A stretch of DNA of 38,138 nucleotides from Acidobacteriota bacterium (GTDB taxonomy: Bacteria; Acidobacteriota; Thermoanaerobaculia; Thermoanaerobaculales; Sulfomarinibacteraceae): positions 1-38,138 of the forward strand of contig JAADFK010000004.1 of the NCBI GenBank assembly GCA_013152925.1, in the 5' to 3' direction. A program made the position numbers and the translations under genes. How positions within the stretch are numbered: position 1 is the stretch's first letter; the number at the start of each line of letters is the position of its first letter. Shown here piece by piece: positions 30,364-38,010 of the stretch. The notes beneath the pieces were generated by a model that saw only the letters and a list, made by a program, of their open reading frames with translations, ran no database searches and had not been told where the DNA came from.

Positions 30364-30380
30364 GGCCCCCCCCAGGACGG

Positions 30381-30670
30381 GACGTGCCGCCCACGTACTT
30401 CTCGCGAGACCGTGCAGCCCAGCCTCAACGCCAAGGAGAGAAGTGCGTGAGTGGCACTCCACGGGAAGGGCGCCCGGAGCATTAGTGTGCCATCGAAGGA
30501 GGCGTTCCGCGACGCATTCCGGCGGGCGCCTCCAAACCGCTCTGACCGCCCCTCGCGTCGCGCCCGCCGGAAGCGGACGGCGCTTCCGGGCGGGCCTCCG
30601 CCGGCCCTCCCGGGAGCGAACGCCGGAGCCGAGGAGAACCCGTTCCCTGCGCGCCAGGGAGAGCCGAAAA
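30381..30670 (+). repeat. Multi-hairpin intergenic element, copy 1
   Basis: H1 30384-30403/30438-30457; H2 TTCCGGCGGGCGC 30517-30529 / GCGCCCGCCGGAA 30560-30572; H3 CGGCG-CTTCCGGG...CCCGGGAG-CGAA-CGCCG 30578-30625. Homologous to 37728-38010 and the reverse complement of 37405-37665. Confidence 0.85.
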
Positions 30671-30740
30671 CCAACGGACACCGCCTTCCGTGCTCCGAGG
30701 GAACTGGACGGGCGGTATACTGGGCGGAAGGAGGCTACCC

Positions 30741-31511
30741 ATGTCCAAGACTCTCGTGATGATCCACGGCATGTTTTCAGCCCCCTGGGTCTGGGAGAAG
30801 TACGTGCCATTCTTCGAGGATGTGGGCTGGCGCTGCGTGACGCCGACCCTGCGCCACCACGACATCGAGCCGGGGAGCCCGCCTCCTCCCGAGCTGGGCA
30901 CGACGAGCGTGCTGGATTACGTCGAGGACCTGGAGGAGCTGATCCGCGGCCTGGAGGAGGAGCCGGTCCTCATGGGGCACTCCATGGGCGGGCTGCTGGC
31001 GCAGATGCTGGCGGCCCGGGGACAGGGCTCCGCGGCGGTGCTCCTGACCCCGGCGGCGCCGGCGGGCGTGCTGGCGCTCTCTCCCGCGGTGATCAAGTCG
31101 TTCCTCGGTCCCCTGACCACCTGGGGCTTCTGGAGGAAGTCCTTCCGGCCGACATTCAAATCGGCTCTCTACGCCTTCCTGGAGGGTTTCCCCGAGGAGG
31201 AACGGCGCGGGATCTGGGAGCGGATGGTGTACGAGTCCGGCCGGGCCATCTTCGAGATCGGCCTGTGGCCGTTCGACCGGCGCCACGCCACCCGCGTGGA
31301 CCCCGCGGCGGTCACCTGCCCCGTGCTGGTGGTGGCTGGCGGCAGGGACCGCGCCACGCCGGCCTTTGCCGTTCGCAAGGTGGCAAAACGTTACCCAACG
31401 GCCTCCTACCACGAGCTGCCTGACCAGGCCCACTGGGTGCTGGCCCAGACCGGCTGGCAGGACGTGGCCGCCCTCTGCGCCCGCTGGCTGGGGGAAGTGG
31501 CTCCGGGCTGA
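30741..31511 (+). CDS. Alpha/beta hydrolase
   Basis: MSKTLVMIHGMFSAPWVWEKYVPFFEDVGW...PVLMGHSMGGLLAQMLAARG...CPVLVVAGGRDRATPAFAVRKVAKRYP...PDQAHWVL. Confidence 0.92.
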   Translation: MSKTLVMIHGMFSAPWVWEKYVPFFEDVGWRCVTPTLRHHDIEPGSPPPPELGTTSVLDYVEDLEELIRGLEEEPVLMGHSMGGLLAQMLAARGQGSAAVLLTPAAPAGVLALSPAVIKSFLGPLTTWGFWRKSFRPTFKSALYAFLEGFPEEERRGIWERMVYESGRAIFEIGLWPFDRRHATRVDPAAVTCPVLVVAGGRDRATPAFAVRKVAKRYPTASYHELPDQAHWVLAQTGWQDVAALCARWLGEVAPG

Positions 31512-31587
31512 GGTCCGACCGGCAAGGGTGCGTCCCGCCATGAACGATGTCCGGTGTCACCTGGTGGGGAACCTTGTTCTTGATGAT

Positions 31588-31654
31588 GGTCCGGCTGGGT
31601 CCTGGCCGCCTGGTCTGTCGAGGTTGTCCTGTTCGTAGCCAGGTGGGCCGGACC
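31588..31654. other. Long composite stem-loop downstream of hydrolase
   Basis: GGTCCGGC-N5-CCTGG ... CCAGG-N3-GCCGGACC. Confidence 0.55.
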
Positions 31655-31860
31655 GAATCAACGGCTCGCGGAGGAGATCCATACACGGGGATGGAGCTCC
31701 CCGGTGAGCTGGAACGGTTTCTCCCGCCCATCGTCCGATGAGGCGCGGCCGGTCATGTCGTTTTCTGATACGGTCGCACGTGCTGTGTGATGTCGGCCGC
31801 GCCAATAGTGTTCCGGAATACGGATTGTGGATGTAGAATCGAACAATCATGGAGGTGAGC

Positions 31861-34800
31861 ATGCGGATGGCATTCGGGTGCGTCGGGCTGGTTTGCCTGT
31901 TCGTCGTGGCGGCTGCGGAGGCGGGCGCACAATGCGGGCCGTGGACGATCGTTCCCGGGCCGCCGGCCCAGGGGAGCCGGGCGGCGGTCTGGACGGGGGA
32001 CCGTTTCGTGGCCGTCGGGGAGGGCTTCTTCGTCAGCCCCGACGGGCGTTCGTGGCGGAACGTACCCCAGGCGGGCTTTCCGCCGAACGGCGACGTGGGG
32101 CTGAGTTGGTCCGCGGTGGCCTTCAACGGGCACCAGCTCGTGGCGGTGGCCGACCATGGCGAGGTGTTCTTCCCAGGCGACGCCGAAGGCACGGGGGCCA
32201 TCGCCATCAGCTCCAATGGCGAGCGTTGGAAGCTCGTCGTACCGGTGGTTTCGCAGGGCCTCCACGCGGTGGCATGGGGTGGAGGGCGTTGGGTGGCGGC
32301 CGGAGATTCCATCTTTCTGTGGAGCGAGGATGGAACGAGCTGGCACGAGGGAACCGTCGTGTCGGGACCGGCAGGCGTGGGGATCTGGTCCGTTGTGTTT
32401 ACCGGCTCACGGTGGGTGGCGCTCGGGGTCCGTAATAGCGGTATCGTGGCCACCAGCGAGGACGGTGTCACCTGGAACGTTGATCCCGTGGAGGCACCGA
32501 TGGTTGCCCTTGCGAACAACGGTGCCGCGACGGTTGCCGTCGGTGGTGATGTCGCCCTGACGAGCACCGATGGGATCTCATGGACGTCGCACAAGGTTGG
32601 CGGAGATGTCTCACTCTTCAGTCTTTCCTGGGTCGGAGAACACTTTGTCGCGGGTGGTGTTCAGCGCGTCGGCTGGGAATCCGGGCCTCCAGTTGCTTTG
32701 GGAAGCACCGAGGGCTCCAGCTGGAAGCTGCTGTCCACAACGCCACGGCCCGTTTCCGCGATGGCGGCCGGCCACGGTTTCTTTGTGGCTTTGAGCTCGG
32801 GCATGGGCGTCATGACGAGCCGGGATGGAACGAGTTGGGAGCTGTCGGGCGGTATCGGCTATGGGCGGAGCTTTCAGGCTGTGCAAGCGGTTGGAGGGCG
32901 CCTGATGGCCGTCGTGAGGCATTACGTTTCCTTTCCGTACACCTATTTGGGCTCAGGTCCGTTCCGGTCGGATCTCGCCATCTCCACCGACGGGATTCAC
33001 TGGGAGCATCATCCGATCGATACCGACGGTTACTCTGACCTCGCCTGGAAGGACGGCCGCTACCTGGCCCTTGCTCCCGATGGCCTGATGTCCAGCCTCG
33101 ACGGTGTTTCCTGGTATCCCTCCCGCGGGGGTCTTCCAACGGGCTCGCACTTTCATGAGGTCGCGGCCGGACCGCCGGGCTTCATTGCCTCTCTCAGCGA
33201 CAACAACGACCGGTCCGTCGTCTCCCTCTACTACAGTGACGACGGGTTGAGTTGGACTCGTGCTGCGACGGCGGATGGCACCGCGATTCCGGGACGAGCG
33301 CTGAGCTGGGCGGTGGGCCGTTTCATCGCGGCGAGCGAAGACCGCGTCGCAACGAGCGTCGACGGCCTTCACTGGACCGTCAGCATGGGCTCCTGGGGAA
33401 CGAATGGTTTCTCGGCCTTCGCCGGGAACGGGAGCCGATTCGTCGGGATCGGCAAGGGCAGCCTCCTGGCCTGGTCGGACCACGGCCTCCAGTGGACGGC
33501 GGTGAACGGCATTCCCGAGGGCGATCTTTTCAGCGTCACGTGGGACGGTGAGGAGTTCCTCGTGGCCGGCGCCGACTTCCTCCTGAGGAGCGCCGACGGG
33601 ATCCATTGGAGCTCCGAGGCCCTGTGGGACACACCCTGGTACGGCGGGATCGCGGTGCTCGACGGCCGAACGGTGATTGCGGGACGGGACGGATCCCTGC
33701 TCGTGCGAGCCTGCCCGGACGAGACTCTCGATGCCGGCGCCGGCTTCCGCATGGCCCTGCCCGCCATGGCCCACACCGCCGGACGGAACGGGACCGCCTG
33801 GCGCTCGGACCTGGTCCTCCACAACCCGGGCGACCGGGCCGTCCGGGTCGGCGTCTGGCCGGCCCATCACTCCCGAGGCGCCGGCGGCGTCGCCTCGGCC
33901 TCGCTGGTGGTGGAGCCGGGGCGTTCCGTGACGCTCCAGGACCTCCTGCCGGGCTTCCTGGGGTCGGACGAGCCCTCCGGGGGTGCGTTCCTCACGGCCA
34001 ACGCGCCCCTGCTCGCCGCGTCGAGGACCTTCAACGGGCAGAAGGATGGTACCTGGGGTCAAAACGTTCCGCTCCTGTCACCGGGAGACTGGATCGAGGC
34101 CGGACAGCGTGCCGTCATTCCGGGAATCGGCGAGGACGCCTCTGTGCGGACCAACCTGGGGCTGCTCAACCCCAACGGCTCGGCGCTGGTGGTCCACGTG
34201 CGCTTTCACGACGCCGACGGCGCGCTGCTCGGCGAGCGTTCCTGGACGGTGCCGGCCTGGGGCTGGCGGCAGATCGACCAGGTGCTCGAGAAGGCCCAAG
34301 CGGCGCCGGTTTCCCTGGCCTGGGCGGATCTCGAGGCGGACGGTGACCTCGTGGTCTACGCCTCGGTGATCGACAACGCCACGGGTGACGCCGTCACCGT
34401 CCTGCCCGCGGCGCCGGCGGACGGTGACCTGGTCGTGCCCGCTGCGGCCCATGCACCGGGCTTCGGGGGTGTCGTGTGGCGTACGGACCTTGACCTGGTG
34501 GCCGCTGGGGCTGGCCCCGCCCGCTACCGGCTGGAGCTGCTGCCCGCGAACGGGCCGGTGCTCCAGAGCGGCGAGCGGACCCTGGAAGCGGGGCATGCGG
34601 AGAGACTGACGGATGTGGTCGCGACGGTCTTTGAGGCCTCCGGCGGCGGCGCCATCCGGATCGTGCCGCTCGCGGGCGAGCTGACCGCGTTCAGCCGAAC
34701 CTACGCCGCGGGGCCCGCGGGGAGCTTCGGCCAGGCGGTCGCCGCGCAGCCGGTGGCGGAGGGAGGGCCGGCGGCCGGTGAGCTTCGTCTGGTGGGCCTG

Positions 34801-35121
34801 TCGGGATCTCTCTCGGACCGCGAGGGCTTCCGGACGGATGTGGGGGCGGTCAACCTCTCGGATCGGGCGGTGGCTCTCGAGATCGAGCTCCGCGCGGGTG
34901 ACGGCACCCTGGTCGGACGGCGCGAGCTCGACCTGGCAGCCGAGAGCTGGGCGCAGCTCGACCGCGTGTTCCAGGGCCTAGCGGCCACACCGGTGGTTGG
35001 CGGCTACGCCGTGATCACCTCCGCGGACGGCCTCCAGGACATCCTGGCCTATGCCTCGGTCATCGACAACCGCACCGGCGACCCGGTGTTCCTTCCGGCG
35101 GCGGTCCGCGCAGGACCATAG
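31861..35121 (+). CDS. Large secreted Asp-box/BNR-like propeller protein with duplicated C-terminal module
   Basis: SD GGAGGTGA before ATG 31861; signal MRMAFGCVGLVCLFVVAAAEAGAQ; thirteen S-x-[DNE]-G-x-x-W-like motifs (e.g. WSEDGTSW, TSEDGVTW, TSTDGISW, ISTDGIHW, YSDDGLSW, RSADGIHW). Confidence 0.8.
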   Translation: MRMAFGCVGLVCLFVVAAAEAGAQCGPWTIVPGPPAQGSRAAVWTGDRFVAVGEGFFVSPDGRSWRNVPQAGFPPNGDVGLSWSAVAFNGHQLVAVADHGEVFFPGDAEGTGAIAISSNGERWKLVVPVVSQGLHAVAWGGGRWVAAGDSIFLWSEDGTSWHEGTVVSGPAGVGIWSVVFTGSRWVALGVRNSGIVATSEDGVTWNVDPVEAPMVALANNGAATVAVGGDVALTSTDGISWTSHKVGGDVSLFSLSWVGEHFVAGGVQRVGWESGPPVALGSTEGSSWKLLSTTPRPVSAMAAGHGFFVALSSGMGVMTSRDGTSWELSGGIGYGRSFQAVQAVGGRLMAVVRHYVSFPYTYLGSGPFRSDLAISTDGIHWEHHPIDTDGYSDLAWKDGRYLALAPDGLMSSLDGVSWYPSRGGLPTGSHFHEVAAGPPGFIASLSDNNDRSVVSLYYSDDGLSWTRAATADGTAIPGRALSWAVGRFIAASEDRVATSVDGLHWTVSMGSWGTNGFSAFAGNGSRFVGIGKGSLLAWSDHGLQWTAVNGIPEGDLFSVTWDGEEFLVAGADFLLRSADGIHWSSEALWDTPWYGGIAVLDGRTVIAGRDGSLLVRACPDETLDAGAGFRMALPAMAHTAGRNGTAWRSDLVLHNPGDRAVRVGVWPAHHSRGAGGVASASLVVEPGRSVTLQDLLPGFLGSDEPSGGAFLTANAPLLAASRTFNGQKDGTWGQNVPLLSPGDWIEAGQRAVIPGIGEDASVRTNLGLLNPNGSALVVHVRFHDADGALLGERSWTVPAWGWRQIDQVLEKAQAAPVSLAWADLEADGDLVVYASVIDNATGDAVTVLPAAPADGDLVVPAAAHAPGFGGVVWRTDLDLVAAGAGPARYRLELLPANGPVLQSGERTLEAGHAERLTDVVATVFEASGGGAIRIVPLAGELTAFSRTYAAGPAGSFGQAVAAQPVAEGGPAAGELRLVGLSGSLSDREGFRTDVGAVNLSDRAVALEIELRAGDGTLVGRRELDLAAESWAQLDRVFQGLAATPVVGGYAVITSADGLQDILAYASVIDNRTGDPVFLPAAVRAGP

Positions 35122-35440
35122 ATGGCGGCCCGATGCCGCGGGGTCGCGGCGGGGGACCGTTCCGGCGGCAGGGGTCGCCGTGGGGAGAAACGACGGGGTC
35201 CACTATCCGTTCCGTTCAGAAAAGGAGAAGCCGGGGCGCTTCGGGGAGCGCTCGATTCCAACCGTGCAGTCTTCGCCGGGAGGAGGTGGAGGTGCCAAGG
35301 GGCGTCCGTGCAGGATCGGAGCCCTGCACTCCAGATGTTCCCGGGCGATGGCTGCTGGGAAACGGCGGTGTCCCCTGACATCCCCCGTCGGCGCCGGCCG
35401 CGGACACGGTGGCAGACTCGATCGCGGTCGCGGGGACGGG

Positions 35441-36526
35441 TCAGGCGATCTGCTGGATGATCTGCGACGCGAGCTCTTCGAAGGCCTTCGCGGCGGCGGA
35501 GTCCGGTTTCTCGACGACGATGGGTTTGCCCGCGTCGCCGCCGCTGACGATGGCGGGATCGATGGGGACGCCGCCGAGGTAGGGGACACCGAGCTCCTTC
35601 GCGCTCTTCTCGCCGCCGCCCCTGCCGAAGATATACTCCACGTGGTGGCAGGAGGGGCACTCGTAGAAGGACATGTTCTCGATGATGCCGAGCACGGGGA
35701 CGTCCATCTTCGTGAACATGGCGAGACCCTTGCGGGCGTCGATCAGGGCCACGTCCTGGGGTGTGGTGACGATGACGGCGCCGGTCATGGGGACGTTCTG
35801 GCAGAGGGTGATGGCCACGTCGCCGGTGCCGGGCGGCAGGTCGACGATGAGCTCGTCGAGCTTTCCCCAGACCACGTCGCTGAAGAACTGCTCCAGGGCC
35901 TTCATCAGCAGCGGACCGCGCCAGATGACCGGCTGATCGGCCTCGATGATGTGCCCCAGGGAGATGACCTTGACGCCCCAGTCCGTCTCCACGGGGTAGA
36001 TCTTCCCGGACTCGTCGGCCAGGGGCTGGCCGCCGCCCATCATCATCTGCTGTGAGGGTCCGTAGATGTCGGCATCCAGCAGCCCGACGGATCGTCCCTG
36101 CCCGGCGAGGGCGATGGCCAGGTTGGCGGCCACGGTGGACTTGCCCACGCCGCCCTTGCCCGAGGCGACGGCGATCACGTGGCGGATCTCCTCGATCCGT
36201 CCGGCCCAGGCCGGGGCGGCCTGGCTGCCAACCTGTGGGCCGCCCGCCTGGGGCAGCTCAGGCCCGGTCTGAGCTGGAAGGATGCGAACTTCAGCGCGGA
36301 TCTCTTCGACTCCCTCGATCTTCTCGAGAGACTCGCGGATCTGGTTCTCCACCTCCTCGGCGGCGGCGGGAGAGGCGCCCATCAGGGTGACGAGCACACG
36401 GACGCTTGCCCGGTCGATCTCCAGCTGGCGGATGAACCCTCCATCCTCGAGGTTCCGGCCGGTGACGGGATCCTTGATCTGGCGGAGTGCCTCTCGAACG
36501 GCGTAGTGGGACAGGCGCGGTTTCAT
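35441..36526 (-). CDS. apbC: Mrp/ApbC/NBP35-family P-loop ATPase (Fe-S cluster carrier)
   Basis: HVIAVASGKGGVGKSTVAANLAIALAGQGRSVGLLDADIYGPSQQMMMG...LIVDLPPGTGDVAITLCQ...MSFYECPSCHHVEYIFGRGGG, plus N-terminal DUF59-like region. Confidence 0.95.
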   Translation of the reverse strand: MKPRLSHYAVREALRQIKDPVTGRNLEDGGFIRQLEIDRASVRVLVTLMGASPAAAEEVENQIRESLEKIEGVEEIRAEVRILPAQTGPELPQAGGPQVGSQAAPAWAGRIEEIRHVIAVASGKGGVGKSTVAANLAIALAGQGRSVGLLDADIYGPSQQMMMGGGQPLADESGKIYPVETDWGVKVISLGHIIEADQPVIWRGPLLMKALEQFFSDVVWGKLDELIVDLPPGTGDVAITLCQNVPMTGAVIVTTPQDVALIDARKGLAMFTKMDVPVLGIIENMSFYECPSCHHVEYIFGRGGGEKSAKELGVPYLGGVPIDPAIVSGGDAGKPIVVEKPDSAAAKAFEELASQIIQQIA

Positions 36527-36563
36527 GACGGCGTGGCTCCTTTCCTGACCGTGGAGTTTAACC

Positions 36564-37334
36564 TCAGGAGCGGGGGCTGCATTCCCCCTCGGGTTCCGGA
36601 ATATGCCCACGGGGCCCCCGGAGGCGATCGATGATACACCGTGTCTCGTCCATCAGCGCCTGCCGATCCTTCATGCTGCGGCCCTCCGTGGGAATGGCCT
36701 CTCCGATGCGGACGGTGATGACGCTCAGGGGCCGGACCTTCCAGTCGTGGGAGGGCATGGCCAGTCTCGGGCCCTCGAGCCCGACGGGCAGGATGGGGAA
36801 GTGCGATCGCATGGCCAGCAGGAACCCGCCCCGCCGGAACGGCAGCAGGCGGCCGTCGTCGGTGCGGGTCTCTTCGGGGAAGATCAGCAAGGAGTTCCCG
36901 CCCCGGGCCTGATCGATGGCCTGGAGGAACATCCCGACCGCGGTGCTCCGGTTCGCCCGGTCCACGGGGATGAAGCCCAGAGCCTTGAGCGCCCAGCCGA
37001 GGAGGGGAACGGAAAACAACGATTCCTTGGCCAGAAAGCGGGTACCGATGCGGGAGGGCAGTGCGGCCAGCAGGGCCGGGATGTCCAGGATGGACTCGTG
37101 GTTGGCCATGATGACGTAGAAGCGGGAAGGGTCCAGGTTCTGAAGCCCCTCCACGCGGAGCCGCACCGCGGCGGCCAACAGGATCAACCGCCCCCACCAG
37201 CGGGCCAGGTAGAGGGTCGTGCGGCCCGTGGGCGAGAAGGGGGTGGCGGCGACGGCGGCGACGGAGAACAGGATCGTCAAGACGACCGCGACCGGCCAGA
37301 CCCACAGGCTGAAGAGGAAGCTCACCACGCGCAT
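36564..37334 (-). CDS. plsC: 1-acyl-sn-glycerol-3-phosphate acyltransferase
   Basis: FYVIMANHESILDIPALLAALPSRIGTRFLAKESLFSVPLLGWALKALGFIPVDRANRSTA...LLIFPEETRTDDGRLLPFRRGGFLLA; HX4D motif. ORF track start (37865) extends spuriously into the repeat. Confidence 0.92.
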   Translation of the reverse strand: MRVVSFLFSLWVWPVAVVLTILFSVAAVAATPFSPTGRTTLYLARWWGRLILLAAAVRLRVEGLQNLDPSRFYVIMANHESILDIPALLAALPSRIGTRFLAKESLFSVPLLGWALKALGFIPVDRANRSTAVGMFLQAIDQARGGNSLLIFPEETRTDDGRLLPFRRGGFLLAMRSHFPILPVGLEGPRLAMPSHDWKVRPLSVITVRIGEAIPTEGRSMKDRQALMDETRCIIDRLRGPRGHIPEPEGECSPRS

Positions 37335-37404
37335 CAGGCCGGTATTGTACGCCGGCAGGGTTGAGAGGGGGTAGGCTGGCGGCCACCTCGCTTCGCCGGC
37401 GCCA

Positions 37405-37665
37405 GGGGGTTCCCTTCGCTCATCTCCGGCGTCCGTTTGTTTGCGGACCGGGCGAACAAACGCCGTCCTCCTCCGGCGGGCGCGACGCGCTCGGGGTGAG
37501 AATGGGCCGAGGCGCCCGCCGGAGTCCGGTGCGGGACGCCTCTCAGGAGGGCCAACGCCTTCTGCCGGCGGTGTTCCCGTGCATTGCCAATCATGCACTT
37601 CTCCCCTTGACGCCGAGGTGGAGCTGAACAACGTCGGGAGAAGTACATGAATGGCACGTGCCACC
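37405..37665 (-). repeat. Multi-hairpin intergenic element, copy 3 (inverted)
   Basis: H3 37427-37465 (CGGCG/CGCCG outer, TTTGTTTGC/GCGAACAAA inner), H2 CTCCGGCGGGCGC 37471-37483 / GCGCCCGCCGGAG 37512-37524, H1 37586-37605/37636-37655. Confidence 0.8.
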
Positions 37666-37727
37666 CAGCGCGCCCTGCTCCTGGCGTAGTGGTGGACCTT
37701 CTCCCCGGGCGAAGGGACCGCCGGACG

Positions 37728-38010
37728 GGACGTGCCGCCCACGTACTTTCTCCCGAGCGCGCCAACGATCCCTTCACGCTCCGGAGGGAAGTGCGTGAGT
37801 GGCACTCCACGGGAAGGGCGGCCGGAGCATTCGTGTGCCCTCGAAGGAGGCGTTCCGCGACGCATTCCGGCGGGCGCTGCCCAAGCGCTCTCATCACCCC
37901 TCGCGTCGCGCCCGCCGGATGCGGACGGCGCTCCCGGGCGGGCCTCCGCCCGCCCGCACGGGAGCGAACGCCGGCGCCTAGGAGAACCGGTCCCCCGCGC
38001 GCCAAGGGCA
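37728..38010 (+). repeat. Multi-hairpin intergenic element, copy 2
   Basis: H1 37732-37754/37786-37805; H2 37865-37877/37908-37918; H3 37926-37973 (CGGCG-CTCCCGGGCGGGC-CTCC-GCCCGCCCGCACGGGAG-CGAA-CGCCG). Confidence 0.85.

Follow-up and report, generated by a model that had tools for sequence, protein, structure and literature searches.

The three-copy element in the window (the whole stretch of 38,138 nucleotides that was analysed) is a folded unit that spans eight genera, all within a single GTDB family of Acidobacteriota. Because its fold is kept more than its letters, we take it to be a real and apparently undescribed element and not a chance pattern. The earlier note had described three copies, running H1-H2-H3 on the + strand in copies 1 and 2 and on the - strand in copy 3, and had argued for selection on their structure. 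All three are present, in that order and on those strands, with core spans now refined to 30374-30632, 37420-37667 and 37722-37980, and selection on structure is strongly supported by covariation above phylogenetic background, including in an alignment made from sequence only. The features of the window are these:

30374..30632, + strand (H1→H2→H3): copy 1, subtype A, a full unit found with covariance models R1 and R2 (163.7 bits); its neighbours, named from Pfam, are a TetR-type gene (-) and an alpha/beta hydrolase gene (+)
30384..30457, + strand: H1 hairpin of copy 1, GTGCCGCCCACGTACTTCTC ... GAGAAGTGCGTGAGTGGCAC, from the sequence and from covariation across copies
30501..30624, + strand: junction module of copy 1, from RNAalifold and phylogeny-preserving covariation
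30501-30506 with 30619-30624: closing stem of copy 1, GGCGTT with AACGCC, enclosing H2 and H3
30517-30572, + strand: H2 of copy 1
from about 30578, + strand: H3 of copy 1
37420..37667, - strand (H1→H2→H3): copy 3, subtype B, a full unit (192.7 bits)
37428-37433 with 37535-37540, - strand: closing stem of copy 3
about 37434-37462, 37471-37524 and 37585-37656, - strand: H3, H2 and H1 of copy 3
37668..37721: linker of 54 nt inside the head-to-head B-A pair formed by copies 3 and 2
37722..37980, + strand (H1→H2→H3): copy 2, subtype A, a full unit (147 bits)
37732-37805, 37865-37919 and about 37927-37975, + strand: H1, H2 and H3 of copy 2

Copies 1 and 2, both of subtype A, are 89% alike across 237 nt, and copy 3, of subtype B, resembles subtype A at about 72% over the best stretch. 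Since copies 2 and 3 both belong to one head-to-head pair (B-type, then A-type), they are not independent; the same B-A layout is seen again about six times in the host genome (contigs C114, C118, C230, C76, C23 and C39), in some cases truncated. Measured against dinucleotide shuffles, the folding z-score is -4.7 for copy 3 taken as DNA and -2.9 for copy 1 taken as RNA. The local pairings quoted in the earlier note (the arms of H1 with a C-G to T-A compensation, a 13-bp H2 with an altered end pair, and H3 inner stems of CTCCCG/CGGGAG in one copy and TTTGTT/AACAAA in another) can all be found in the sequence.

The core unit is ~245-260 nt long, conserved edges (read by eye) add some 20-25 nt, and the hairpin order H3-H2-H1 is constant across copies. 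The fold that RNAalifold gives for units of the host genome and of its relative G005 exceeds three hairpins. Each unit consists of two modules: a three-way junction (closing stem, H3 and H2), in which H3 and H2 appear to be the arms under the closing stem, and the long hairpin H1, which stands on an extra, covarying base stem absent from the earlier account. The outer H3 stem of that account, CGGCG/CGCCG with a 4-nt bulge, is doubtful: it can form in genera g1, g6 and g8, and g7, g2 and g3 have no copy in which all its pairs are present. It vies for the same bases with the long-range closing stem, which holds a strongly covarying pair (C-G 64 : G-C 43) and is the better-supported reading. The closing stem takes the forms GGCGTC/GACGCC, GGCGTT/AACGCC and GGCGGC/GCCGCC, with GGCC/GGCC in g7, where on average only about five of the six pairs are kept. 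Forms of the H1 base stem include GUGCA/UGCC, GUGGA/UCCC and GCG/CGC, and a mismatch just inside it (C·C, A·A or C·A) recurs in many copies. Few bases are constant in all six genera, namely CCGG...GCCT in the region of the junction and, near H1, CCG.G...GCC ... GGCAC...CC. The H1 stem itself has at least four forms in the host genome alone, and many g7 copies differ too. Single copies have cleanly lost one hairpin, H3 in contig C39, H2 in C230 and H1 at locus L087.

A first count of pairing covered 112 copies in an alignment fitted to the model. Standard pairs occupied 91.6% of its cells, vs 69% when shuffled and 42-50% with the partners slid, and two-sided changes numbered 1178 cells vs 360. 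Because this alignment had been fitted to the model, a tree-preserving null was made, an R-scape-like implementation of our own in which the tree and each branch's substitutions are preserved. Beyond this null 33 of 54 pairs covary, the closing stem and the H1 base stem both do so, and in a blind test of all pairs every one of the 25 significant pairs lay on the structure or within one column of it. The junction stem and H1 were also recovered from a sequence-only alignment of 47 copies of one genus (g7), in which seven of nine significant pairs belong to the consensus fold and the remaining two lie, by position, in H2 and H1. The earlier note had staked its claim on covariation above the phylogenetic background, and under our implementation of such a null the claim survives.

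Paired arms might also be maintained as a by-product, by template-switch repair of quasi-palindromes, which would keep them complementary without selection. Such repair would fit H1 stems that are swapped wholesale yet still paired, and inverted repeats around HUH genes (see below) that are perfect despite differing sequences. However, covariation extends to the long-range closing stem and to the base stem of H1, orthologous stems retain sequence besides complementarity, and a symmetric process would not predict a strand skew. This explanation is already weakened, and we consider it highly unlikely.

A strand-symmetric cause should produce G·T and A·C oppositions equally. Counted as independent origins in strand-neutral helices of sequence-only alignments, the H3→H1 strand has 150 A·C vs 69 G·T; that is, G·U is tolerated about 2:1 over A·C on the H1→H2→H3 strand. 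Genus g8 alone is at parity (14 to 13). A structure-fitted count also gave parity and is unreliable, because its alignment was fitted to the fold of one strand; two further counts gave a slight skew, and the sequence-only count supersedes all of these. The skew toward the H1→H3 strand therefore makes a folded single strand likely, in the H1→H2→H3 direction in which the earlier note had read the element; that the oppositions favour one strand is partly shown. The 14 tRNAs in the same loci have 28 G·T and no A·C, a result that ARAGORN's own rules favour, and single-stranded DNA, too, tolerates G·T. The choice between RNA and single-stranded DNA, which the earlier note had left open, is narrowed without being settled: one strand seems favoured, orientation relative to genes is random, and orthologous sites differ in presence or absence of a copy.

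These data bear most directly on the possibility of a new structured non-coding RNA, which would be transcribed H1→H2→H3 from dozens to more than 100 loci and would have the three-way junction and H1 as its fold. The excess of G·U-type over A·C-type oppositions (150 to 69) speaks for it, as do several blind-significant g7 pairs that run the complete G-C, U·G, U-A, C-G series on the H1→H2→H3 strand, and orthologous copies that keep their stems and vary their loops. Yet the skew is weaker than expected of a textbook RNA, with g8 and the structure-fitted count at parity, and there is no orientation bias relative to genes, no Rfam relative and little base identity constant across genera. Such an RNA may exist and is the chief rival to the reading preferred below, although we are inclined to doubt it. 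We think it rather unlikely that the units make up a new class of large non-coding RNAs, structured as a three-way junction with a long hairpin, present dozens to more than 100 times per genome throughout the family and with the hairpin stem rewritten in many copies. If it is an RNA, it would be an unusually abundant structured one.

Further copies, which the earlier note had made a test of its claim, were found both in the host genome and in relatives. By DNA similarity the host genome contains about 30 clear pieces, and covariance model R1, trained on 19 units taken from it and from G005, gave 51 matches there at E<=0.01, some overlapping or partial. The host genome holds about 45 copies, full or partial, and two relatives hold at least 127 and at least 117. 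Of the genomes searched with R1, 12 of the 20 from this GTDB family (host included) and none of the 25 from outside it gave a match. The broader model R2 (68 sequences) matched 12 of 15 sampled family genomes, including three that R1 had missed or barely found, and gave no match in 76 genomes sampled from the other families in the class. Structure models were needed for this, a DNA search of 60 relatives having missed most of the family. Of about 85,000 species genomes searched for the exact H1 pattern, a single additional Acidobacteriota MAG of the same family (JAADFN010000030) had genuine copies; two contigs from DPANN and one from Acidobacteriaceae also matched, apparently by chance, with no other part of the element present. 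No match was found in the viral contigs (exact pattern), plasmids and phages searched. The genomes are MAGs, and the E-values come from short calibrations. Contigs C19, C136, C76, C8 and C23, and C30 of genome G013, begin or end inside or beside a copy, and copy numbers from MAGs are therefore probably underestimates. At about 120 x 245 nt in 3.4-3.8 Mb, core units make up ~0.8-0.9% of the genomes of two relatives.

With crude gene calls, 106 of 111 copies are intergenic; gene pairs with copies are convergent in 21 cases, tandem in 19 and divergent in 5, vs 4, 33 and 6 among pairs that lack a copy. Copies between tandem genes point either way at random (13 to 11), and arrays occur in every orientation (head-to-head, tail-to-tail, tandem triples). 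Two orthologous gaps in g7 carry copies in one species and are empty in another, differences that may be gains or losses; at one such site, read closely, neither a target-site duplication nor inverted repeats bounding the unit were recognised. At one orthologous site the stems have been swapped for other paired sequences, with 8 two-sided compensations. Downstream of mnmA, three species share an element that is 93-95% identical, vs 81% for the flanking coding sequence, with 0-1 changes in ~107 stem positions vs 11-15 in ~138 loop positions. If the fixed copy were not under selection, this pattern would be difficult to account for. That stem sequence is held constant in fixed copies is partly shown, at this one clean locus, and the case for retention draws on few loci. 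In the rnc-uvrC gap of two species (L127 about 1370-1790 vs L196) the element is 99.6% identical and the flanks 79-86%; the gap including the element is about 99% identical, one species having a 43-nt insertion. Since the identical block runs past the element, recombination is possible there.

In another reading, each pair would mark both termini of a larger transposon, with single units as solo ends or deletion products. A- and B-type units do pair repeatedly in the host genome, and one pair, on contig C231, encloses a HigB/HigA-like two-gene block. But most pairs have only about 55 nt between their units, single units occur in other genera along with tandem triples and tail-to-tail pairs, and no recurrent neighbour protein was found; we regard transposon ends as quite unlikely. 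The enclosed block (L060 2857-3480) looks by eye like a toxin-antitoxin system of HigB/HigA type. Around the copies generally, no recurrent gene or protein was seen beyond a few common to two to four loci. Near copies in four genomes (L115, L124, L193 and L206) lies a small gene whose protein, with the shared motif VRVPAPLKSIADQVIRSASSVPANL.EGHGRSGRDR, resembles four-helix-bundle S23-type proteins. In G005 (L090, L095 and L096), arrays of a short GGTCACGGACACGG-like repeat lie beside copies in the same gaps. At about 31725-31850 the window also contains another repeat, unrelated to the element (GATGAGGCGCG.CCGGT...GTCGTTTTCTGATACGGTCGCACGTGCTGTGT), which is found again on contig C124 (L075 about 440-560), where it adjoins a degenerate H3-like piece.

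The reading that we prefer, tentatively and at close to an even chance, is that of a mosaic repeat of the BIME/REPIN kind, dispersed as DNA and retained for its fold; it would be family-specific, high-copy, non-coding and much larger than BIME or REPIN. Its copy number, clade distribution, conserved fold with compensatory change, intergenic placement, presence/absence and stem replacement at an orthologous site are direct observations. The unit would disperse as DNA, and the enzyme moving it in trans would probably be a single-strand transposase of HUH type, encoded by the host and recognising the strand in its folded form. Many copies would then be retained where the fold is useful in place, for instance at transcript 3' ends between convergent genes. 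Several points stand against dispersal as DNA. HUH genes do not track the element, and copies are no denser near them; the target-site duplication and unit-bounding inverted repeats looked for were not recognised; purely selfish DNA would not be expected to show strong constraint on fixed copies; and presence/absence could come from deletion instead of insertion.

Y1 HUH genes (RAYT-type) were found in 29 of 36 genomes and, across the order, most genomes have them whether they carry the element or not. The sister family, in which the element is missing, often has them; none were found in G006 and G018, two element-rich but incomplete genomes. At 31 HUH loci the element occurs at background density and does not bracket the HUH gene. 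A RAYT partnership was rejected on these grounds of presence and position. In genome G012 an HUH transposase gene fills the gap downstream of mnmA in which three sister species carry the element, a single case that is suggestive of a link. The HUH genes at L078, L212, L213, L217, L219 and L261, from this family and order, are tightly flanked by inverted repeats (perfect over 28-30 bp in four of the six), all of which contain GGTGCCAGG or GTGCCAGG and vary in inner sequence by gene. The perfect repeats begin with GGTGCC, the first letters of the H1 base of subtype A; this likeness is too short to build on and is no proof of descent.

The earlier note had recognised no named family, and Rfam bears this out: at gathering score the element has no match, the sole hit being a group II intron piece outside it (RF02005, L114 3144-3239 in G001, about 1.4 kb from a copy), and a permissive threshold added chance microRNA models only. 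We found no paper describing it in the literature.

Among known systems, the element is best compared with BIME and REPIN. Like REP, BIME and REPIN sequences it is multi-copy, intergenic, palindromic, mosaic and clustered in direct and inverted order (PMC3733652, PMC3116915, PMC6006769), it is commoner between convergent and tandem genes, and most of the genomes have HUH transposase genes. Yet two defining features, a unit with a tag and a flanked transposase, are not seen in it: the GTAG or CGTC foot of REP has no invariant counterpart, and unlike the repeat of a REPtron, which flanks its cognate RAYT gene, the element neither flanks HUH genes nor clusters at them. A REP unit is a palindrome of 20-40 nt, whereas the element is about 245-300 nt long, with a three-way junction and three arms. 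TIRYTs are Y1 transposase genes with long terminal inverted repeats, and their hosts include Acidobacteria (PMC3733652). The HUH genes of this family resemble them in their perfect 28-30 bp inverted repeats starting GGTGCC, but these TIRYT-type repeats are not the three-hairpin unit. Bacterial MITEs, such as Correia/NEMIS and RUP (treated in part also in PMC3733652), are likewise non-coding, dispersed, intergenic and of roughly the same size class; they differ in that here no inverted repeat bounding a single unit and no target-site duplication was recognised at the one site read closely. The repeated structured RNAs in Rfam share a conserved branched fold with compensatory changes, with no family matching the element, and integron attC sites (with R and L boxes and the IntI integrase) share the keeping of structure over sequence. 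In contrast to REP, the stems of the element are visibly constrained in a fixed copy. At least one fixed copy looks selected, which would set these elements apart from decaying mobile debris, and if they are moved as folded single strands they would be far larger and more elaborate than the known REP elements.
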